A stretch of DNA of 40,349 nucleotides from Candidatus Fermentibacterota bacterium (GCA_029571005.1 JAKPTG010000013.1:1-40349), one strand, 5' to 3'; counted from the first letter of the stretch, positions 14,216-28,395 are shown. Program-made: numbers and translations. The notes: generated by a model from the sequence alone, not told the origin.

Positions 14216-14815
14216 ATGAGAGTACCTTTGATTGCGTTGGCGCTGATGGGGTGCTGGGCCTCCGCCTACGACGTGGAGATCGGCTCCAACGACTTCCCCT
14301 ACAACGCACCGCTCTGCGCTAATTGAACCGAGTCTTTGCGCTACCAGGTGGTAGTGCTCGGCAGCGAAATCGGCAATGCGATGACCATCAACTCCTTCGC
14401 CTTCAAGCCCACTTCCGGGGAAGGCGTTGTATTCGACGAATTCACGGTTTACATGGGGCCCGCTGCGGGGAATACGCTGGGCAGCGACTTCATGGCGAAC
14501 TACTCCGGAAGCAGGACCAAGGTGTACAGCCACACCAGCGTATCCTTCGCTCCCAGCGGAGGCTGGGTGACCATCCCCCTGGATACTCCCTACTTCCACG
14601 CCGGAACCGGCAACCTGATAATAGAAGTGGAATGGCCGGACGGAGAACAGGAGATATACGCGGGTTACTGGACGACAACCGGTGCAAGGCTTCTTACCGC
14701 CTCCTACGGGAGTTCAACGGGGTACGCCTACGATTTCTGCCCGAACCTCCTACTCTCGGGCACCCTCGATCTGGCACCCATGACGTTCGGATCCATAAAG
14801 GCCACTTTTCAGTAG
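14216..14815 (+). CDS. Candidate secreted selenoprotein 1 (CxxU, TGA read as Sec)
   Basis: Read through one in-frame TGA (14324-14326, residue 37), this gene encodes 199 residues. ATG 14216 follows AAGGGAG. A signal peptide (MRVPLIALALMGCWASA) precedes the mature start YDVEIGSNDFPYN, then a C-x-x-U motif (CAN-Sec), then a beta-rich domain ending at TAG. The domain resembles small secreted beta-sandwich repeats of FCB bacteria (FTVYMGPAAGNTLGSDF, then GGWVTIPLDTPYFHAGTGNL). The paralogue at 14855-15475 has TGA at the same aligned position with conserved flanks on both sides (VE-G---FP-N-P-C--U). Conservation after the TGA rules out simple decay. A hairpin fitting the bacterial SECIS rules starts 1 nt after the TGA. 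Function is unknown; CxxU suggests thiol/selenol redox or metal binding outside the cytoplasm. Standard gene callers would report only a 36-aa fragment plus a headless ORF. Confidence 0.85.
14328..14361 (+). promoter_or_regulatory. Bacterial SECIS hairpin, selenoprotein 1
   Basis: Outer stem CCGA/TCGG, a one-sided bulge of six bases, then an 8-bp upper stem GCGCTACC/GGTAGTGC closed by loop AGGT. The loop begins 20 nt after the last base of the TGA. The known bacterial SECIS rules ask for a loop about 16-37 nt after UGA, a short loop with G in its first two bases and an upper stem of at least 4 bp; all are met. Confidence 0.8.
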
Positions 14816-14878: not shown

Positions 14879-15475
14879 CTCTTTATGCTGTTCGGCATCG
14901 GAACGGCCCGGGGCGTGGAGGTCGGTTACTCCAGCTTCCCTATGAATGTGCCCTTCTGCGGTGGTTGACACCCGGAGATACGCTGCCAGGTGGCGGTGCC
15001 GGGAAGCGTGCTTGGGGGAAGCGGGGTGATGGGGATCGAGGTGCATTCACTGTCGTTCAGGGCCGCAGGCGCCGACAGTGTTTTCTTCGGGAGCTTCACC
15101 GTGCGGATGGGTGTCATGGCGGGCGATTCCATGGGGACGGACTTCGCCGGAAACCTTGACCGCGGAGGCGCCGTCGTCTTCCACAGGGACGACGTGGTGA
15201 TCCGGCCGGGCCGGGGTTGGATCACCCTCCCCCTCGATACCCCTTACGTCTTCCGGGGGTCGGAGAACCTGCTGGTGGAGATAACCAACAGCGGAGCCGA
15301 CGGCGGGCTCCTGTACTGCGGCTACTGGGAGACCGAAGACGTCCGCACCGTTTACAGCGAGAGCCATCTGGCGGCGGGCGGTGAGCTTTACCGCTTCTCG
15401 CCCCACATGTATCTCGGCGGCGACGCCTTCCTGGATATGGGGCCGTTTCGTGCAAAACCGGCCGGTGACGAGTAG
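14855..15475 (+). CDS. Candidate secreted selenoprotein 2 (CxxU, TGA read as Sec)
   Basis: Paralogue of the gene just upstream (39-bp gap), 206 residues if the TGA at 14966-14968 (residue 38) is read as selenocysteine. It has a signal peptide (MKLLRAAPLFMLFGIGTA), then VEVGYSSFPMNVPF, then CGG-Sec. The following beta-rich domain is collinear with the first protein: R-x-Q-V-x-V just after Sec, FTVRMGVMAGDSMGTDF, then GWITLPLDTPYVFRGSENL. It ends in a charged tail at TAG. It has its own SECIS-like hairpin with the same loop and spacing as gene 1. ATG 14855 has GAGG 6 bp upstream. The alternative of two independent nonsense mutations at one aligned codon, with coding continuing, is unlikely. The function is unknown. 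Confidence 0.85.
14971..15003 (+). promoter_or_regulatory. Bacterial SECIS hairpin, selenoprotein 2
   Basis: Outer stem CCCGG/CCGGG, a five-base one-sided bulge (AGATA), a 7-bp upper stem CGCTGCC/GGCGGTG and loop AGGT. The loop starts 20 nt after the TGA, exactly as in gene 1. One upper-stem pair is A-T in gene 1 and G-C here, a compensatory change that supports the fold over mere coding conservation. Confidence 0.8.
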
Positions 15476-15763: not shown

Positions 15764-17203
15764 ATGAGGCTTGTTCTGTCACTGTTCATACTGGCCGCGA
15801 CCGCCGTTGCCCGGTGTCCCCTGGGTTTCTCCCCGGAGGAAGCATGCCATGGGGGCTCCCCGGGATGCGCCCTGTTCTCCGATGCGGATGGAAACGCCCG
15901 CTGCGACAACCCCGGACCCCAGCCGGTCACCGATCCGGAGCCGACCCGGGAGCCCGAACCGGTGGAGGAGACGGGACCCGCGGCGGAACCCGAACCGGCG
16001 GAGGAGACAGGCCCGACTGAAGAACCGGAGCCCGGGCCTGTGGAGGAACCGGAGCCCCATGCAGGAACTCCGACGGAGCGGGAGGAGCATCCGGCGGAGC
16101 CGGAAGCGTCTTCACAGCAGCCTGTTGAACCGATGTCCCCCGGAAGGGATGACCAAATGGAGGCCTCCCCGGCGGTCCCCGGCGAAGCCGCCGAAACGGA
16201 TACCGGTGCCGGGGCGGCGGATTCCCGGGCTTTTCACGGCTGCCCCATGGGCTGCACCGAGGAGCGGGCCTGCGCCGCCGAAAACCCGGGATGCGCCCTG
16301 TTCACGGATACCGACGGGAACGGGAGATGCGACAATCCCCTGCCCGGTGAAGCGCCGGACAGCGCCGAAGTATCGGCCGTTCCCGTGATCGGCTGTCCCC
16401 TCGGGCTTCCTCCGGAGGCCGCCTGCCCCGGGAGTCTCGCCATGTGTCCCCACTGGTTCGGGCAATCGAGGGCGGTTCCCTGCTCAAACCCGTCCGGGGG
16501 CGGCAGGAGGGTCGCTATCTCCCTGACAGCCCTCTCGGTGCTGATGATCATGTCAACCGTGCTCAGCAGACGGCTCAAGGGCAGAAAGCCCCACGAGAAG
16601 CTCCGGCGGAACCTGGCCTGCAGGACTGTCCACGGGTTGAGCCTGATCGTCCTTGGATTCGGCATCCAGGGGTGTTTCTGCCCCTTAGGGGCCTTCCAGT
16701 ACGTCTTTCTGAAGAACGGACCGGCGTTCCTGGGCTGGATGGGCGTCGCGATACTCGTCATCCCATTCCTGTTCGCCTCCTTCTTCGGAAGGATTTTCTG
16801 CTGCTGGGTCTGTCCCATGGGCGCCATGCAGGAGCTGGCCTTTCAGATACCCTCCCCGGGAAAGCTCAATCCCAGGGGGAGGGTGAGCAGGGCCGTAGGC
16901 CGATTCCGTTTCGTCGTTCTGGGAGCGGTGGTGACCCTCCTGCTCCTGATCCGCTCCGGGACCGTCTCGGTGCCCTGGCCGGCGGTTTTCTGCCGGCTCG
17001 ACCCCTTCCGCCCCATCTTCACCCTGTTCCTCTCCGGAAGTGCGGTGGCGGCGGGCGTTACATTGATTCTCTCGGTGTTCGTCAGGAGGTTCTTCTGCCG
17101 CTACCTGTGCTTCATGGGAGCGGCCCTCAGCCTGTTCTCACCGCTCCGGCTGTACAGCCGGATCAGGGGAAAGAAGCCGCACGGGGACGACTGCGAACCC
17201 TGA
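15764..17203 (+). CDS. NapH-like polyferredoxin membrane protein with N-terminal Cys repeats
   Basis: A 479-residue protein with two parts. After a signal peptide (MRLVLSLFILAATAVA) come three Cys modules of the form CP-x-G...AC...C...C-x-NP, at residues 18-50, 160-192 and 211-243. The first two end in a Ca-loop-like stretch (DADGNARCDNP, DTDGNGRCDNP). A linker of about 100 residues, rich in Pro and Glu (EPEP repeats), separates modules 1 and 2. The C-terminal half has four to five membrane helices with the NapH/YccM/NosR-type 4Fe-4S motifs CFCPLGAFQ (304), CWVCPMGAMQE (347) and CRYLCFMGA (445; the last lacks the usual Pro). Such proteins pass electrons between quinols and periplasmic partners. 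ATG 15764 follows GGGAAGG. The neighbours are the CxxU pair upstream and the exported-ferredoxin operon beyond the protease. Confidence 0.82.
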   Translation: MRLVLSLFILAATAVARCPLGFSPEEACHGGSPGCALFSDADGNARCDNPGPQPVTDPEPTREPEPVEETGPAAEPEPAEETGPTEEPEPGPVEEPEPHAGTPTEREEHPAEPEASSQQPVEPMSPGRDDQMEASPAVPGEAAETDTGAGAADSRAFHGCPMGCTEERACAAENPGCALFTDTDGNGRCDNPLPGEAPDSAEVSAVPVIGCPLGLPPEAACPGSLAMCPHWFGQSRAVPCSNPSGGGRRVAISLTALSVLMIMSTVLSRRLKGRKPHEKLRRNLACRTVHGLSLIVLGFGIQGCFCPLGAFQYVFLKNGPAFLGWMGVAILVIPFLFASFFGRIFCCWVCPMGAMQELAFQIPSPGKLNPRGRVSRAVGRFRFVVLGAVVTLLLLIRSGTVSVPWPAVFCRLDPFRPIFTLFLSGSAVAAGVTLILSVFVRRFFCRYLCFMGAALSLFSPLRLYSRIRGKKPHGDDCEP

Positions 17204-17459: not shown

Positions 17460-19163
17460 TTACCTTATTACGGTCATCCTTCCCACGGCTGTTCCCGAGG
17501 GAGCTTCCGCACGAACGAAGTAAAGACCGCTGCCCAGGGTTTCCGGCACGTTCCACAGAAAACTGTGGCTGCCCGGGGACAGATGGCCGCAGTGGATCAC
17601 CGCCACGGTTCTTCCCGTCACGTCGAAAACCGTCACCTTAGCGTTCCCGGCCGTGGGGGAGAAGACGGAAAAAGCTGCAGAGCTGCTTGCAGGGTTCGGG
17701 GTTACCGGTGAAACCGATACCAAGGAAGGCTGAAGGCCGGCATGTGAGTAACCCCCGGTTCCCACGGTCTCCAGAGCGGCGAGTGCGGCCTGATAGGCAT
17801 CCACCCTTCCGGCGCCGAAAGTGTTGTCCTTGCCGGTGGCTCCCAGATCGAGGGAGGTCACCTCTATCAGGGAGTCCAGCTGAGCGACGGACAACTCGGG
17901 GTTGATGCTCAACAGAAGGGCGGCGACCCCCGCCAGGTGCGGAGTGGCCATGGAGGTACCGCTCATCGTGGTGTAGCCTCCGCCGGGATAGGTGCTGAGC
18001 ACGTCAACACCGGGGCCGCTGATGTCCGGGCTGATGAGGGGGGAGGTGTCGGAGTAGTCATGCCAGGGAGCCACATTCAGCCACCAGGTCACCGGCCCCC
18101 TGCCGGAAAAGCTGGCTATGGCGTCGTTGGAATCGGTGGCCCCCACCGTGACCACCGCCGTCTGTCCGCCATGGAAGGTCTGGTCAGGGTGGAACCACGG
18201 GGGAGGACAGTCTCCGCTGGCCTTGATGCTCCCCGAGTACGGTCCGCTGTTGCCTGCGGCGACGCTGTGATAGATCCCGGCCAGAAGGGCGTTCTCCTCC
18301 GCCGTGCGAAGGGTGGCGTTCCCAACGGGGGTTGTTCCCAGGGACATGGAAAGGACCGATGCGCCATGCTCCGCGGCAAACTCCATCGCCTGTATCCAGG
18401 TTGGGTAACCGCCCTGGTAGTAGTAAATCCGCAGGGCCATTATGGTCGCGGAAGGGGCAACGCCCGTCTCGGTTCCCGCTGAGCCGTCGCCTGCCACCGT
18501 TCCGGCGCAGTGGGTGCCGTGACCGTTGTCATCCATTGGGTCCAGCGGGTTACCGGAGCCGTAGAAGTTGTACCCGTAGTGGTAGCCCGCATCGGTGTCG
18601 TGCCACATGTTGTTTCCCAGGTCGGGGTGGTTGTAGTCAACCCCGGTGTCAATGATGCCGACGATGACGCCCTGACCCTCGTAACCCAGTTCCCAGACCT
18701 GGGGGGCGTTGATCTTGGACACACCCCAGGCCAAACCACGATTCAGCTCGTCCGGCGATGCCTCGCGGCGTTCGACCGGTTCGATCAGCGCGGTTTCCAC
18801 AGCCCCGTGGTCAATGTACATTACGTCGGACCTCTGAGCGAGAAGCCTGATCACTTCCGGGGTGGTCTCGCAGTAGAAGCCGTTCACAAGCCAGAAAGGC
18901 ACCAGCCTCTCCACCGGACAGCCCTCAAGAAAGGCCAGCGCTTCCGTTTGAGACAATGAGGCCTGGGAGCGAAGCGCCTCCACCACGAAGACCTGCCTTT
19001 CGGCCCTGCTCATCCCCGCCGTCACGGAATTCACCCATTCCGTATCGAGTGCCCCCTCCATGTGCACCACCACCGGCAGCATTTCACCGGGGGACGCCAG
19101 GGCCATGTCCATCTGCAGGTCGGGGTGTATGACTCCGGCGCAAAGCATCAAAAGAATACTCAT
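17460..19163 (-). CDS. Secreted subtilisin-like (S8) protease with C-terminal sorting domain
   Basis: A 567-residue exported serine protease. A short leader (MSILLMLCAG) and a propeptide-like region (residues 20-140) precede the catalytic domain. The triad is visible as D172 (GIIDTGVDYNHPD), H215 (DDNGHGTHCAGT) and S404 (MSGTSMATPHLAG), with the oxyanion Asn in AAGNSGP (N305). The final 80 residues are the same FlgD/T9SS-like Ig domain as in the BNR and M28 proteins (TPNPASSSA, VTVFDVTGRTV, GSGLYFVRAEA, ending in R). ATG 19163 has AAAGGA upstream. A promoter at 19428-19456 and a collapsed paralogue lie just upstream. It is probably an extracellular or surface protease for peptide nutrition. 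Confidence 0.95.
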   Translation of the reverse strand: MSILLMLCAGVIHPDLQMDMALASPGEMLPVVVHMEGALDTEWVNSVTAGMSRAERQVFVVEALRSQASLSQTEALAFLEGCPVERLVPFWLVNGFYCETTPEVIRLLAQRSDVMYIDHGAVETALIEPVERREASPDELNRGLAWGVSKINAPQVWELGYEGQGVIVGIIDTGVDYNHPDLGNNMWHDTDAGYHYGYNFYGSGNPLDPMDDNGHGTHCAGTVAGDGSAGTETGVAPSATIMALRIYYYQGGYPTWIQAMEFAAEHGASVLSMSLGTTPVGNATLRTAEENALLAGIYHSVAAGNSGPYSGSIKASGDCPPPWFHPDQTFHGGQTAVVTVGATDSNDAIASFSGRGPVTWWLNVAPWHDYSDTSPLISPDISGPGVDVLSTYPGGGYTTMSGTSMATPHLAGVAALLLSINPELSVAQLDSLIEVTSLDLGATGKDNTFGAGRVDAYQAALAALETVGTGGYSHAGLQPSLVSVSPVTPNPASSSAAFSVFSPTAGNAKVTVFDVTGRTVAVIHCGHLSPGSHSFLWNVPETLGSGLYFVRAEAPSGTAVGRMTVIR

Positions 19164-19759: not shown

Positions 19760-20869
19760 CTAATACCTTCCGAAGGCCGGGCAGGCGGAGCAGTCCGAGG
19801 CTGTGCACTCCGCATCGGAGCGTATCAGGAAGCTGAACCCCGAGTCGGGTTCGCACCGGTAGCCGAAGCCGCTGAGGTACTGGTACACTATGCCCGCCCG
19901 CTCACGATTGTAGGGTTCGTACTCCACCGCAAACAACCGGAACCTCCTGGCTTCGGCGTGGGAAACCGCTTCCCGCTGCCACGGGGCGAGGGTCGTTTCG
20001 GACCTCCAGTCAAACCACTCCGGGGCGATCACTCCGGAGAGTTCGGGAATCCTCTCCAGGGCGACGCGCCAGTTCACCGAATCCGAGGGGACCACCACCA
20101 GTGCGGGCATGCTTCCGCCGGCCAGGTCCGCCGCCAGATCGTTCCCCCGATCCCCGGCGGCCTCCGGGAAGGTCAGAAGGTACAGGGTGTCCTGGTCCAT
20201 GGCGTTGTACACCCCCTCCAGTCCGGAGGAGGACTGAACCGTTCTCTCGTCCCGGGGTGCGAGGAAAAAGGCCGCCAGCCCCCGGATCCCGATCACCAGG
20301 AAGTAAACCGCCACGAACACCGCCAGGACCCTTGCGGCGGCGGTGAACCATTTCCGAGCGGTGAAGAGTCCGACTATGGACAGGGGCAGCATGTAGACGG
20401 TGGTTCCCAGGAAGAACCCGGAGAACAGCAACGCCCCGTTGAAGGCTCCGCCGGCGTCCAGGGCGCTGGTCAGGGCGATGAGGAAGGCGGGGCACAGGGA
20501 GAAGCCGGTCAGCACTCCCAGAAGGAACGGGCTCCCGGTGAACTTCATCCACTTCGAGACGCCGCAACCCCCGCACTGCCGGTTCACCCTCAGGGTGCTG
20601 ATCATCAGAAAAACGCTGAAGAGAACGTATCCGGCGTAGGCCAGGGGAACCCTCACGCCGTAGGGAATGGTTCCGCCAAGAAGCCCCGTCAGGGCTCCGA
20701 AGCACACGTAGGCGGCAAACCTTCCCAGGTTCAGGATGAGGAGAACCGCCAGGGATTGCCGTCCGGTGCGCTTCTCGCTGAACAGGTAAGCAGCGTACAC
20801 CGGACCGCAGGAGGCCAGGCACGAAACCCCGGTGGCAAGCCCCAAGGTCAAACCCTCGACAAACCCCAA
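19760..20869 (-). CDS. DsbD/SafE-like membrane protein with Cys-rich tail
   Basis: A 369-residue protein. The first 210 residues form about six membrane helices of the cytochrome-biogenesis/SafE (TauE-related) type, opening with GVSCLASCGPVYAAYL, which has the paired Cys-CGP seen in these carriers. A CGGCG motif lies in a loop after helix 3. The remaining 160 residues form a soluble domain of no family I recognise, ending in a Cys cluster (ECTASDCSACPAFGRY). DsbD/CcdA relatives move electrons across the membrane as thiols; SafE relatives export sulfur anions. In an operon with four exported Fe-S proteins, an electron carrier or Fe-S maturation role is plausible but unproven. It starts at TTG 20869, with AAGGCGGG upstream; it is the last gene of the operon. 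Confidence 0.75.
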   Translation of the reverse strand: MGFVEGLTLGLATGVSCLASCGPVYAAYLFSEKRTGRQSLAVLLILNLGRFAAYVCFGALTGLLGGTIPYGVRVPLAYAGYVLFSVFLMISTLRVNRQCGGCGVSKWMKFTGSPFLLGVLTGFSLCPAFLIALTSALDAGGAFNGALLFSGFFLGTTVYMLPLSIVGLFTARKWFTAAARVLAVFVAVYFLVIGIRGLAAFFLAPRDERTVQSSSGLEGVYNAMDQDTLYLLTFPEAAGDRGNDLAADLAGGSMPALVVVPSDSVNWRVALERIPELSGVIAPEWFDWRSETTLAPWQREAVSHAEARRFRLFAVEYEPYNRERAGIVYQYLSGFGYRCEPDSGFSFLIRSDAECTASDCSACPAFGRY

Positions 20870-20902
20870 AAAGCCCGCCTTCCCGGTTGGTCCGAAGGAA
20901 TC

Positions 20903-22111
20903 CTACAGCAGGTGCGCCGCCGGGTGGAAGGCGACGCCTCCCTGAATCGAGTTCCAGGTTTCCGTGTACTCCAGCTCCGAAGCCTGCCGCCGGAAGACGA
21001 ACCACGCGGACAACCCGTTTTTCATCCTGTACTCCAGGCCGCCACCGTAGGTTTCCCGGCGACGGGAGCCGCCGGTGCCTGCAATGCTGCTGGGGCCTTT
21101 CCAGATCTTCCCGCCAAGAAGCACGGAGAGGCCGCGGTAAACCCCCACCCGTGTCTCCAGTTCGCCGAACCCGGTGGTCACAAAACTCCTGGTGCCCTGA
21201 CCGTACAGGCCGACGCTGGACGGGTGGTCTCCCCAGCCGCGGAAGGCCAGCCTGAGCCTGGCCCCGGCCTGGAAGGCGGCCAGGCGGGTGGTGCCGTCAT
21301 CGAAATCCAGGGTCTGCGCCACGGTGAAGTTGAAGGTGAGGTTCCGGGCCAGGGTCTGCACCGCCCGAACCCTGCCGGTGGCCCTGTCGGGGAGCGGGTT
21401 GCCGTTATGGTCGTCGCCGCCCTGGAAGGACCAGACCATGTCCGCCGTGAGCTGTGTTCCGGCGGGGGCCCTTCCGGAGGTCAGGGAGGCCGCAACGTTC
21501 ACCCGGCTGTACCCCCGGTCGAAACCGGTCTCGTCTATGGCGGTGTTTCCCGCAAGACCGCCGATGCCAAGGCTTACCCCCAGGGGGGAAGTCCACACCG
21601 CGCCGCCGCCGGCCATGGTCTCCGTCCAGGACAGTTCGCCGTCCTCAAATCCGGCCCCCCCACGGTTCCAGTATCGGCCGAAGGCGTTGAGTGTAACATC
21701 GCCCGGGGCCTTCCAGGCCAGCTTGAGCCCGGGACGCAGAGTGGAGCCCCTTTCGGCGACGCCTTCGGAGGCCGGAAGCACCACCGTGGAGCTGTCCAGG
21801 TCGGTGACGAACCGGAACTCCGGCTCCACCGAGAAGGCGCCTTCGATATAGCCAAAGTTCAGGGTGGTCTCGGAACGGTTCCTCGAGAACCTGGGAAGGG
21901 CCGCACCGTCCCCGGACGCCTTTCGGTACGTCTGCTCCAGGCGCATCACCCAGGGCCCGCTGAAGAGCCTGACCCCGGCGGAGGCGTCGAAGTACATACC
22001 CCCTCCGTAGAGAATGCTGTCCTGCGCCACGGCGAACCCGGCGTGTTCCTCCACCCCCAGCGCCATGCAAAGGCCCGCGGCCCCGGCAAGGACAAGAACC
22101 ACAGCCCTCAT
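20903..22111 (-). CDS. Predicted outer-membrane beta-barrel protein
   Basis: 402 residues from ATG 22111, which overlaps the stop of the preceding ferredoxin gene (TGATG). A signal peptide (MRAVVLVLAGAAGLCMALG) is followed by repeated amphipathic strands with alternating aromatic or hydrophobic and polar residues across the whole length, for example GDVTLNAFGRYWNRGG, GLSVLLGGKIWKG and YGGGLEYRMKNGLSAWFVF. The strand pattern and Gly/Arg/Tyr content fit a barrel; no known family motif is seen. Tight coupling to exported ferredoxins suggests an outer-membrane partner for them, loosely like porin-cytochrome conduits, but no haem motifs (CxxCH) are present. Confidence 0.65.
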   Translation of the reverse strand: MRAVVLVLAGAAGLCMALGVEEHAGFAVAQDSILYGGGMYFDASAGVRLFSGPWVMRLEQTYRKASGDGAALPRFSRNRSETTLNFGYIEGAFSVEPEFRFVTDLDSSTVVLPASEGVAERGSTLRPGLKLAWKAPGDVTLNAFGRYWNRGGAGFEDGELSWTETMAGGGAVWTSPLGVSLGIGGLAGNTAIDETGFDRGYSRVNVAASLTSGRAPAGTQLTADMVWSFQGGDDHNGNPLPDRATGRVRAVQTLARNLTFNFTVAQTLDFDDGTTRLAAFQAGARLRLAFRGWGDHPSSVGLYGQGTRSFVTTGFGELETRVGVYRGLSVLLGGKIWKGPSSIAGTGGSRRRETYGGGLEYRMKNGLSAWFVFRRQASELEYTETWNSIQGGVAFHPAAHLL

Positions 22112-22356
22112 CAGTACACCGCCCCTTCGGGACAGATCTCCACACAGCGGTAGCAGAGGCGGCACAGGCTCGGGTTTATCACCGCATCGCCGTCAATGAC
22201 CTCGATGGCGTTGTAGGGGCATACCTTTTCGCACTCGCCGCAGCCGATGCACGCGGTCGTGTCAACCACCAGCCCGGTGGCCTCGGTGGGACCGGCGCAG
22301 GATGCGGACAGCAGAAGGGCGAAGCAGATCAGTAAAGCCTCAATGTATCGCATCAT
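22111..22356 (-). CDS. Exported ferredoxin-like lipoprotein, 2[4Fe-4S]
   Basis: An 81-residue protein: a hydrophobic signal ending in lipobox LSASC (C20), then a complete 2[4Fe-4S] ferredoxin fold. Cluster ligands are visible as CIGCGECEKVCP (C36, C39, C42, C46) and CRLCYRCVEICP (C65, C68, C71, C75). There is no twin-Arg motif, so it should go out by Sec unfolded and gain its clusters outside, which is unusual. It overlaps the previous ferredoxin gene by 17 bp and the barrel gene by 1 bp. Confidence 0.85.
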   Translation of the reverse strand: MMRYIEALLICFALLLSASCAGPTEATGLVVDTTACIGCGECEKVCPYNAIEVIDGDAVINPSLCRLCYRCVEICPEGAVY

Positions 22357-22570
22357 ACGTGCATACCCTTTGGCACAGCCCGCAACCTATGCAGATCTCG
22401 GGGTCTATCCACGATTTGCCGTCCTCGACGGTGACCGCCCCGGTGGGACAGACCCTGGTGCAATCGCCGCACCCGGAACATCGGACGGGCTCCACCCAGT
22501 ACCTCGTCGCCCCCATGGCCGCTGCGGCAGTCAGGCAGACCAGCAGCAGCAATCCCCACCGAAGCCTCAT
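22340..22570 (-). CDS. Exported ferredoxin-like protein, 2[4Fe-4S]
   Basis: 76 residues. A Sec-type signal peptide (MRLRWGLLLLVCLTAAAAMGA) is followed by RYWVEPVR and two ferredoxin motifs: CSGCGDCTRVCP (C31-C41) and CIGCGLCQRVCT (C60-C70). The N-terminus may stay as a membrane anchor, since there is no lipobox. The start ATG 22570 lies 1 nt past the stop of the preceding gene (TGACATG), so translation is coupled. Confidence 0.85.
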   Translation of the reverse strand: MRLRWGLLLLVCLTAAAAMGATRYWVEPVRCSGCGDCTRVCPTGAVTVEDGKSWIDPEICIGCGLCQRVCTYDAIH

Positions 22571-22571
22571 G

Positions 22572-22991
22572 TCATAACACCTCGAATTCCACGTCCAGGG
22601 GGATCTCCTCCCCGTCCTTCACCCCCACGAGACTCAGGTTGCCCACATCCACGGTCTCGACGGCGCCGATGGGACATCTGGACATGCAGTGGCCGCACCG
22701 GTCACATAGTTCCGGGTCTATCCGCGCCCTGTTGTCTTCGGTAATGCTTATGGCTCCCACAGGACATGCACCGACACAGATCTGACAGCCTATGCAGGAT
22801 TCGGGATTGATGATGTAATCCTCGACCAGCTCGACGGAACATTCGGTGGGGGCGACTTCGGCCACCACCCTGTCGAAGGACTTGACCCTGAGGGACTCGT
22901 ACTGTCCCTCGACGGGGGGCCAGCTCACGGTGAACAGCCCGGCCGCGGCTACGGCTGCGAGAGCGGGAACGATGAACGGGTGCTTTTTCAT
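22572..22991 (-). CDS. Exported or membrane-anchored ferredoxin-like protein, 2[4Fe-4S]
   Basis: 139 residues from ATG 22991, behind AAAGGA. The upstream open frame is not used: the codons there overlap the previous gene. The N-terminal hydrophobic segment (FIVPALAAVAAAGLFTVSW) is a signal or anchor. The soluble part has a preceding Cys (C51), two cluster motifs CIGCQICVGACP (C66-C76) and CDRCGHCMSRCP (C96-C106), and a 30-residue acidic beta-rich tail. It is the second gene of the operon, and its role is probably electron transfer outside the cytoplasm. Confidence 0.83.
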   Translation of the reverse strand: MKKHPFIVPALAAVAAAGLFTVSWPPVEGQYESLRVKSFDRVVAEVAPTECSVELVEDYIINPESCIGCQICVGACPVGAISITEDNRARIDPELCDRCGHCMSRCPIGAVETVDVGNLSLVGVKDGEEIPLDVEFEVL

Positions 22992-23008
22992 CGGTATCCT
23001 TTCGTTTG

Positions 23009-23980
23009 CTACCGCCTGGAGGGGGGCGTGGGGACATCGGGCAGGGTCCCCGCGGGAAGCACCAGCCTTCTGACCGCCTGATTGTGCTGGTAGTACTCGT
23101 CGGGATTGATCACGTCCCTGTAGTTCCAGCACTCGAGGAAGCATTGCCCGCAGTTGATGCACAGTTCGTAGTTGATATAGACCATTCCCCGCGGTCCATA
23201 AGCACCGTCGAAGTCCTGCCAGATAGCGCCGACGGGGCAGGACGGGCCGGTATAGACCCCGGAGTCATTGTACTCCATGAGCAGTGCGCAGGTGCTGCAC
23301 GTGCCCTCGGGGCCGGAAGTCATGCACCTGAGGCAGCCGCCGGTGGGTATGGAGTCGTAGATGAAATTGACCATCTGCAGGGGTTCCTGTGATACCTGTA
23401 TGTCCCCGGACGCCTCGGTGTCACTGAAGAAAGCCCTGACCCCCACATAGTAGCCTTCGCCCAGACGGCCTCCCTCGATGGCTCTCACGGGGCACGCGTC
23501 TTCGCACCGTCCGCAGCTTCCGCAAAGCGTTTCATCAATCACCGCGACCCCGTTCTCCACGGAAACCGCGGTGCGGGGACGAACCGGGCACGCGGCCTCG
23601 CACAGCCCGCAGCCGATGCACACTTCGGAAATGACCCGGGGCTGGAGGAACACGAGGGCCGAATCGGCCGGTGCAGGAATCTCTCCCGCGATCAGTGCGT
23701 CGTCCCAGTTCGCGGTGGTTATCGGGGAAGTGGAAAGCCTGGCCTGGTACCAGGCGGCCCCTTCAACCGGAGTGAAGAAAACCGTGAACGCCTTGTACTC
23801 GCCGCCCTTTATCCAGGGATAGGCGCCGCCCAGCTCGGGTGACATGGCGGTGAAACCGGTATTAACAACAACGGTCCCGGGCTGGATCATCGAAGGCGAA
23901 AGCGGCCGGGGGGACTCCTTGAGGCAACCCACAAGCACCGCCAGGACCGCCGCCGGAATCAAAACCGATTTCTTCAACAT
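23009..23980 (-). CDS. Polyferredoxin lipoprotein, up to four Fe-S sites
   Basis: 323 residues from ATG 23980, behind AGGAGG; the longer open frame upstream is ignored. The signal peptide ends in lipobox LVGC (C19). Residues 30-110 form a beta domain that looks like a fibronectin/Ig-like module. Fe-S motifs follow: CIGCGLCEAAC (121-131), CGSCGRCEDAC (153-163), C-x2-C-x8-C-x2-C (216-231), a lone Cys in SCPVGAI (248) and CINCGQCFLEC (274-284). A beta insert (172-212) splits the set. It is the first gene of the operon 23980 to 19760. It could be a surface-exposed electron hub; no catalytic site is seen. Confidence 0.85.
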   Translation of the reverse strand: MLKKSVLIPAAVLAVLVGCLKESPRPLSPSMIQPGTVVVNTGFTAMSPELGGAYPWIKGGEYKAFTVFFTPVEGAAWYQARLSTSPITTANWDDALIAGEIPAPADSALVFLQPRVISEVCIGCGLCEAACPVRPRTAVSVENGVAVIDETLCGSCGRCEDACPVRAIEGGRLGEGYYVGVRAFFSDTEASGDIQVSQEPLQMVNFIYDSIPTGGCLRCMTSGPEGTCSTCALLMEYNDSGVYTGPSCPVGAIWQDFDGAYGPRGMVYINYELCINCGQCFLECWNYRDVINPDEYYQHNQAVRRLVLPAGTLPDVPTPPSRR

Positions 23981-26856: not shown

Positions 26857-28395
26857 CTACCGGTGGACCACCGCCACCCTGGCGTCGGTGTGGCCGCCGC
26901 CGGAGGAAACCCGCAGAATGTACACCCCGGCCGGGAACGGGGACATGTCCACCGACACGGTGTTGTCTCCGGGGGTCAGAACCAGTTGTTCGCCGTGCAC
27001 TGTTCTCCCCGCGAGGTCGAAAACCTCCAGCAGCGCCCGGGCCGGGGACGACACCGTAACCCGCACCGCAGCCGGACCGGAGACCGGGTTCGGGGAAACC
27101 CTCACCTCGACCCCTGAAGACACCGGAACGACGGACTCTCCGGCGGTGCCCACGGGGATAGGGCCGGCCAGGTACGCCACCGTGGCTATGGAGGCCTTGG
27201 CCATGTTGGTGCCGAAGGGGAAGTACTGTATGTAGTTGGCTATAAGGTCGCTGGTTTTGTGGTAGTGTGGGTTGCTGTACACCAGTCTTTCGATGTTGAG
27301 TATGGCGACGTAGCCGTGGTTCCAGAAACTGGCATGGTCACTGGCGCTCGAGGGGCTGGAGGCCACTTCCTTGACCAGGGCCGGGACGTAGGTGTCGCTG
27401 ATGGCCTGGAAGGCCACCCTCAGCCCGGTGGAGGCGGTGTTGTTGTGGAGCCAGGCGATGTCGTTGCCCGCGGGACCGTAGAAGGTCATGTCCAGGTTCA
27501 CCACCCCCAAAATGCTGTCACCGGCGGAAGCGGCGTTCGAGGCGTAGTAGGCGCTGCCGTAGAGCCCCTGCTCCTCGCCGCCGAACAGGATGTACTTCAC
27601 GGTGTATTCGAACTGGTACCCGCTCATGATCCGGGCCGCCTCCATCACCGTGGCGGACCCGCTGCCGTTGTCATCGGCTCCCGGGGCGTCGTAGTAGGGG
27701 TTGGGGGAGGTGCTGTCCAGGTGGCCGCAGATGATCCAGTAGCGGTTGGGGTAGGTTTGGCCGGTCTGGGTGGCTATGACGTTCTGACAGGTGTAGCCGC
27801 TCATGGGGAAGGGCTGTACCTCCACCTCGAGGCCCATGCCCTCGAACCTGTCCTGGCTCCAGGCGCACGCGGTGTCGTACCCGTCCGTGGAGGAGTGCCG
27901 GGTGAGATAGTTCTGGTAGTTGGTGGTGTAGGAGATCAGGGAGTCCTGGTTTACCGCTTCCACTATTTCAGCGACGATCTCGTCGTAACCGCTCCTCATG
28001 GGAATGGGGATGGCTTCGGCGGGGGCCCGGTTCTCCCGGAGGGGCTGAACATGGTGTATGCCCGGGCGGACGAAGGGGTCCGGCACGGGGCGGGACAGCC
28101 TCACTATGACCGAATGGTGGTCACGGTAAACCGGCTCACCGATTTCCGCGATGTCTGCCAACCCTCCCTCACCGCGGATGGTTACCAGGGCGTAGTCACC
28201 GAGCCCGGCTGCATCCGAGTCCAGCACCCTGCAGCCCTCCCCGGAAACGCCGAAGGCCACCGAGTGATCCGGTGTGCGGTAAACGATCACATAGCCGTCG
28301 CAGGCCTGGGCCCCAGGGTCCGGGATGACGAAAAGGCCGCCGGCGGCGGCGGTTCCAAGAACCAGAGCCAGAACCGGAAAAACCGTTCTTTTCAT
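26857..28395 (-). CDS. Secreted M28 zinc aminopeptidase with C-terminal sorting domain
   Basis: 512 residues with a signal peptide (MKRTVFPVLALVLGTAAAG). The metal-binding residues of family M28 are visible: H225 (CGHLDST), D241 (PGADDNGSG), E274/E275 (FGGEEQGLYGS), D302 (LDMTFYG) and H379 (HYHKTSD). The domain before it (40-120) is a propeptide-like region. The last 80 residues are the FlgD/T9SS-like Ig module (SPNPVSGPA, LEVFDLAGRTV, PAGVYILRVSS). The start lies 1 nt after the stop of the methyltransferase gene, so it is the last gene of a long coupled run. It is likely to trim extracellular peptides together with the S8 protease. Confidence 0.93.
   Translation of the reverse strand: MKRTVFPVLALVLGTAAAGGLFVIPDPGAQACDGYVIVYRTPDHSVAFGVSGEGCRVLDSDAAGLGDYALVTIRGEGGLADIAEIGEPVYRDHHSVIVRLSRPVPDPFVRPGIHHVQPLRENRAPAEAIPIPMRSGYDEIVAEIVEAVNQDSLISYTTNYQNYLTRHSSTDGYDTACAWSQDRFEGMGLEVEVQPFPMSGYTCQNVIATQTGQTYPNRYWIICGHLDSTSPNPYYDAPGADDNGSGSATVMEAARIMSGYQFEYTVKYILFGGEEQGLYGSAYYASNAASAGDSILGVVNLDMTFYGPAGNDIAWLHNNTASTGLRVAFQAISDTYVPALVKEVASSPSSASDHASFWNHGYVAILNIERLVYSNPHYHKTSDLIANYIQYFPFGTNMAKASIATVAYLAGPIPVGTAGESVVPVSSGVEVRVSPNPVSGPAAVRVTVSSPARALLEVFDLAGRTVHGEQLVLTPGDNTVSVDMSPFPAGVYILRVSSGGGHTDARVAVVHR

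Follow-up and report, generated by a model that had tools for sequence, protein, structure and literature searches.

A conserved operon of Sec-like exported ferredoxins, a predicted outer-membrane barrel and a DsbD-type carrier in Candidatus Fermentibacterota: a candidate haem-free electron-transfer system of the cell envelope

We analyzed a stretch of 40,349 nucleotides (nt) from a Candidatus (Ca.) Fermentibacterota bacterium (GCA_029571005.1 JAKPTG010000013.1:1-40349), called the window here, which is one contig (C7) of a 1.87-Mb genome that is 92.6% complete. Six closely packed genes on its minus strand (23980-19760, in the order A-B-C-D-E-F) encode four exported ferredoxin-like proteins (A to D), a predicted β-barrel (E) and a membrane carrier of the DsbD_2 family (F), and a NapH/NosR-like membrane protein (G) is encoded on the plus strand of the same contig. 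The gene order A-B-C-D-E-F is conserved across Ca. Fermentibacterota, in about 30 genomes, and the products very probably form an iron-sulfur (Fe-S) electron-transfer system of the cell envelope of some kind.

An earlier note, made by a model from the sequence alone, had placed an operon of four exported ferredoxins, a barrel and a DsbD/SafE-like carrier at 19760-23980 and had suggested looking for the same set in other genomes. The six genes lie where that note put them, and the coordinates of A, B, C, D, E and F were confirmed (Table 1), but the interval ends too early, since G belongs to the set. The neighborhood search recovered the same set across Ca. Fermentibacterota. Profile searches with E, F, G and A covered 385 genomes, 42 of the order (Ca. 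Fermentibacterota) and 343 of other groups; E was found in 36 of the 42 and in none of the 343, and no other full set of the A-to-G type was found in the 385. In 26 of 36 genomes, G and F are 0.4 to 5.3 kb apart; in the remaining genomes G is on another contig or was not found, with F near a contig end in most of these. When A was used to scan 84,980 species genomes, full-length relatives among the matches listed were only on Sabulitectum/Fermentibacteraceae contigs, and nearly all other listed matches align only around the Fer4 part.

Table 1. Positions of the seven genes in the window and their predicted products
Gene	Position	Strand	Product
A	23009..23980	-	Lipoprotein, lipobox at Cys19, 16 cluster Cys forming four [4Fe-4S] motif sets
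B	22572..22991	-	Exported dicluster ferredoxin, signal peptide
C	22340..22570	-	Small exported dicluster ferredoxin, signal peptide, 76 amino acids
D	22111..22356	-	Small lipoprotein dicluster ferredoxin, 80-81 amino acids, start at 22356 or 22353
E	20903..22111	-	Predicted 20-strand β-barrel, 402 amino acids, without Pfam family, phylum-specific
F	19760..20869	-	DsbD_2 (CcdA/SafE-like) membrane protein with extra C-terminal domain; TTG start uncertain
G	15764..17203	+	Fer4_5 membrane protein of NapH/NosR-like type, exported repeats of four Cys; linkage to F in relatives

The junctions between the genes are also conserved. Of 24 related loci, 22 keep the overlap of C and D (22340-22356) at exactly 17 nt, which is unusually fixed for a whole order, and D and E overlap by 1 nt in 20 of 22; the B/C junction ranges from a 4-nt overlap to a 1-nt gap. 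Since the C/D and D/E overlaps are constant across loci in which identity to the window proteins is only 56 to 75% for D and 27 to 70% for E, translational coupling appears to have been selected, and the products of C, D and E are probably made in fixed proportion.

All four ferredoxin-like proteins match Fer4 above the Pfam cut-off (E-values of 1e-16 for A, 2e-15 for B, 1e-14 for C and 3e-17 for D), with the exact CxxCxxCxxxC spacing of ferredoxins and two such sets per domain, giving ten motif sets in total (four in A and two each in B, C and D). In 25 to 30 sequences from homologous loci of the same order, the cluster Cys residues are invariant in A (16), C (8) and D (8), and B keeps all eight but one, which is present in 22 of 26 sequences and changed in 4. 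We assigned export signals by hydropathy and lipobox rules and therefore call them Sec-like. The lipobox Cys is invariant in A (LVGC; 30 of 30) and in D (SASC; 26 of 26), and it is kept even in A and D sequences that share as little as 32% and 56% identity, respectively, with the window protein; the residue at +2 of A is Leu in 27 of 30. Thus, the description of four coupled, exported ferredoxin-like proteins, two of them with lipoboxes and each with two to four Fe-S motifs, agrees with what we found in the relatives: the export signals are conserved under these rules, and no homologous operon was found in which the proteins are soluble cytoplasmic subunits of a known complex. For a control, we collected 155 Fer4 proteins from loci outside the phylum; 14 have an N-terminal hydrophobic stretch and no later helices, and on inspection these resemble RnfB-type anchors or Rossmann folds, not secreted ferredoxins.

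The earlier note had also reported no haem motifs and no twin-arginine translocation (Tat) signals. CXXCH occurs in no protein of the window. A twin arginine is present in 0 of 26 sequences of D, 1 of 26 of B, 6 of 25 of C and 4 of 30 of A, where gene starts in relatives come from a simple gene caller and the four sequences of A may be start-site artifacts; no conserved Tat signal is therefore seen in A to D, with some doubt for C. TatC was found in the genome of the window and in nearly all of the order, which rules out a host without Tat and shows that this pathway is at hand and not consistently used for these proteins.

The AlphaFold model of A has a predicted local distance difference test score (pLDDT) of 68, with a confident core, and flanks the first dicluster ferredoxin with β strands on either side; the surrounding sequence resembles a fibronectin-III domain. 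An fn3 match near an E-value of 0.05 was obtained for 3 of 25 A homologues, in one homologue the match reaches 3.5e-4 after removal of the ferredoxin insert, still below the Pfam cut-off, and a fold search with A returned the ferredoxin core and weak immunoglobulin (Ig)-like matches only, none at E ≤ 0.001. These results are suggestive only of an arrangement in which the first dicluster ferredoxin of A would sit as an insert in a fibronectin-III-like (FN3) domain, and we treat the FN3 assignment as tentative. Homologues of B align with that ferredoxin half of A, which makes B its probable paralogue. Lipoprotein A has an additional copy standing alone at one locus (L132:8350-10197), where it adjoins a His-rich cation-transporter-like membrane protein.

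The barrel reported beside the ferredoxins is borne out by modeling of E, which has no match in Pfam. An AlphaFold model built from a 23-sequence alignment has 20 strands at a pLDDT of 84.8, and Foldseek places only outer-membrane barrels at the top (TonB receptors at 8 to 12% identity, MOMP and OmpG), with MtrB, from the Mtr complex, at rank 17. These fold matches are generic, and the outer-membrane site of E is a prediction. The two-facedness of its strands is 2.13, compared to a shuffled mean of 1.07 (standard deviation, 0.18), a value reached by 0 of 2,000 shuffles, and the invariant residues R243, R249, D269, R321 and E360 are all on the face called lumenal.

F belongs to the DsbD_2 family (PF13386; Pfam E-value, 3.5e-22), and its C-terminal domain ends in a Cys cluster, so the thiol-type carrier described in the earlier note is present. 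Residues C17, C21, C99, C102 and C126 are found in 22 of 22 sequences. Loop charges predict a topology with both ends outside, C99-x2-C102 in a cytoplasmic loop and an acidic C-terminal domain carrying C355, C360 and C363 outside, as one would expect for a carrier that takes thiol electrons outwards. In many relatives, although not in the window, F is directly followed by a gene for an MdcD/CitD-like acyl-carrier domain fused to a CitE-like lyase (HpcH_HpaI; for example, L119:12022-13161, plus strand).

A ferredoxin and a DsbD_2 protein also occur together in another lineage. In genome G044, a 206-amino-acid Sec-type exported ferredoxin with four Fer4 motifs (L211:13203-13823, minus strand) lies directly before a DsbD_2 gene (L211:12259-13272, minus strand), downstream of a gene of the AIR-synthase family (HypE-like) and with no adjacent barrel. 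In the related genome G331, the ferredoxin (L228:8814-9455, minus strand) also lies behind the HypE-like gene, with no DsbD_2 gene called beside it. Thus, an exported ferredoxin and DsbD_2 seem able to stand as a unit, and the independent pairing in G044 supports a thiol-keeping role for F.

G is NapH/NosR-like, with a Fer4_5 match (PF12801) at 2.8e-13 and a score of 41.6 bits against the NapH model TIGR02163, below its cut-off of 213. Its N-terminal part is acidic, predicted to be exported and built of 4-Cys repeats, and five helices follow, with one CX3CP motif (C347-C351) and one CX3C motif that lacks the Pro (C446-C450), both invariant; no Fer4 motif corresponding to the C-terminal 4Fe-4S motifs of NapH was found in it. 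Judging from loop charges, the 347/351 and 446/450 pairs would face the cytoplasm and C305, C307 and C411 the outside. The repeats (within 15764-16500) have an invariant C-x9-C-x6-C-x11-C spacing, end in D-x-D-G-x-x-C-D-N and are separated by Glu/Pro-rich linkers; there are usually three, with 2 to 6 detected, and they are also carried by L114:2992-4842 (plus strand). They match no Pfam family and could represent either calcium/disulfide modules or a novel repeat that binds clusters. We rejected the best G-like matches in other phyla as true counterparts, given their ordinary gene contexts and the lack of N-terminal Cys repeats in the sequence inspected. Profile searches with G and F identified no solved relatives by sequence, none of the seven proteins A to G matches FMN_bind, and the single ApbE of the genome lies away from the locus; the ApbE and UbiA searches had no bearing on mechanism. 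Two paralogous proteins of about 160 amino acids (MVVLGSEIG...; 14348-14815 and 14990-15475, plus strand), without Pfam family, are encoded just upstream of G, and a relative is found beside G in most other loci.

What is known of the host bears on the source of electrons. No member of the cytochrome c assembly family (Cytochrom_C_asm) was found in 32 genomes of the order, compared to 8 of 10 outside genomes in the same search. MqnA/D are absent from the order, and MenD gave at most two weak matches, below the cut-off. Sabulitectum silens is described as a strict fermenter that has Rnf and lacks a respiratory chain (PMC5763382). A quinol is therefore an unlikely electron donor for G, and the natural candidate would be cytoplasmic ferredoxin in its reduced form.

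We propose that cytoplasmic electrons, most likely from the low-potential ferredoxin of fermentation, would cross the inner membrane via G and reach B and C, the exported ferredoxins of the periplasm. These would hand them to A and D, lipoproteins that would sit at barrel E or within it; the Fe-S clusters would bridge the outer membrane to an acceptor outside, either a partner cell or a substance such as sulfur, Fe(III) or humics. F would draw on cytoplasmic thiol reductant and keep the Cys residues of the Sec-exported apo-ferredoxins reduced for cluster formation outside the cytoplasm, a role modeled on CcdA/DsbD, which serves apocytochromes before haem attachment. Electrons could also move inward. 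We give about an even chance to the full chain from G through B and C to A, D and E, with F keeping the exported Cys residues reduced and with Fe-S proteins in place of cytochromes. That the system is the first haem-free outer-membrane conduit, in which Sec-exported ferredoxins acquire clusters outside the cytoplasm with the help of DsbD_2 thiol reductant and are wired to the surface via a 20-strand barrel, we suggest tentatively and rate somewhat short of even.

Both a haem-free Fe-S conduit and an extracytoplasmic Fe-S assembly system had been offered in the earlier note. The conserved operon, the invariant export signals and cluster ligands, the 20-strand model, the linked G and the lack of the cytochrome c assembly family and menaquinone enzymes argue for the conduit, whereas we infer that the clusters are occupied and are assembled outside the cytoplasm, and we likewise infer the route, the passage across the outer membrane, the outward direction and the acceptor. 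The assembly system fits F as a helper that keeps Cys residues reduced and fits less well as the purpose of the whole set.

Several points weigh against the conduit. No Fe-S donor is known to act outside the cytoplasm, and no outside acceptor or terminal reductase is encoded near the operon. The lumen residues of E are on average no more conserved than the lipid-facing ones, which gives no sign of a protein lodged within the barrel. The twin arginine in a fifth to a quarter of C sequences makes Tat export of C possible, and D has Asp at +2 in 6 of 26 sequences, a residue that in E. coli would retain a lipoprotein in the inner membrane. Finally, S. silens was described as a strict fermenter (PMC5763382).

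The most serious alternative, which we consider unlikely, is that the system is confined to the periplasm, with G and the exported ferredoxins feeding an unlinked periplasmic or inner-membrane reductase and E serving otherwise, for example, in substrate uptake. NapGH and MauMN do pair a NapH-like protein with a periplasmic ferredoxin to supply a periplasmic enzyme (PMC8238504, PMC5928378), and the often charged +2 residue of D points the same way, but no catalytic gene is linked in any locus, the near-constant 1-nt overlap of D and E argues that E works with the ferredoxins, and the +2 residue of A is Leu and not the Asp of inner-membrane retention. It is improbable that the system handles iron or iron sulfide, with the lipoproteins capturing or storing Fe-S material outside the cytoplasm for import by E: the folds closest to E are those of TonB-dependent iron receptors, and the extra copy of A lies beside a cation-transporter-like gene, but those matches are generic, E is a bare barrel without the plug domain of TonB receptors, and full ferredoxin ligand sets with a NapH-like partner favor electron transfer. 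Less probable still is a thiol/disulfide system with F as its true source of electrons, in which the Cys-rich exported proteins do thiol redox chemistry or hold other metals in place of 4Fe-4S clusters; the family and predicted topology of F, and a reading of the G repeats as disulfides around a calcium loop, would suit it, but the exact cluster spacing and Fer4 scores of A to D would not. Finally, the signal peptides are most improbably anchors of cytoplasm-facing subunits of a known complex, since, although RnfB-type polyferredoxins likewise start with a hydrophobic helix, the lipobox Cys is invariant in all 56 sequences of A and D, A has a possible FN3-like domain, no Rnf or other complex genes are linked, and NCBIfam models of Rnf, Nuo and Hdr subunits all score below cut-off.

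The operon is a member of neither the porin-cytochrome nor the NapGH family, and it works like both. Like the MtrCAB and Pcc conduits, it couples an outer-membrane barrel gene to exported multi-center redox proteins that include lipoproteins; unlike them, it has no CXXCH, its predicted cofactors are [4Fe-4S] clusters, and its order lacks the cytochrome c assembly family, while MtrB (649 residues in 6r2q_B) is much larger than the 402-residue E. NapGH and MauMN likewise combine a NapH-like membrane protein (Fer4_5) with exported ferredoxin-type proteins, but A to D carry Sec-like or lipoprotein signals in place of Tat signals, G lacks the two C-terminal 4Fe-4S motifs, there is no linked terminal reductase, the tested menaquinone enzymes are missing from the order, and a barrel and DsbD_2 are added. 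Flavinylated extracytosolic systems share the NapH-like or DsbD-type inner-membrane entry and the haem-free logic (PMC8238504), whereas this locus has no FMN-binding protein or ApbE. F resembles the CcdA/DsbD thiol pumps of cytochrome c maturation in its family and in Cys pairs arranged to carry reductant outwards, and differs in its proposed clients, exported apo-ferredoxins, and in a C-terminal Cys domain of its own that is predicted to lie outside. The L211 and L228 ferredoxins share the Sec-type signal, the Fer4 repeats and, in L211, the adjoining DsbD_2; there, in contrast, a single long ferredoxin is present, with no barrel or lipoproteins adjoining. We found no open-access paper on periplasmic or exported ferredoxin conduits, or on this gene combination, which is weak evidence since the search covered open-access literature. 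We regard the operon as a variant form of extracytoplasmic electron transfer, and there is a real possibility that it is of a new category. The region is flanked by genes for a subtilase (17460-19163, minus strand) and an M28 peptidase (26857-28395, minus strand) with weak or clear type-IX-like C-terminal sorting domains (Por_Secre_tail/FlgD_ig).

Multihaem cytochromes or flavoproteins are generally considered necessary for electron export to the cell surface in Gram-negative bacteria, and [4Fe-4S] proteins are expected to exit the cytoplasm mostly in folded form, via Tat. If the conduit proposed here is real, phylum-wide Sec-exported ferredoxins with a barrel would break both expectations, and A, D, E, F and G would be precise targets for the study of Fe-S assembly outside the cytoplasm. 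Such a conduit would, in addition, account for the means by which supposedly strict fermenters that lack a respiratory chain could shed low-potential electrons in digesters and sulfidic sediments.

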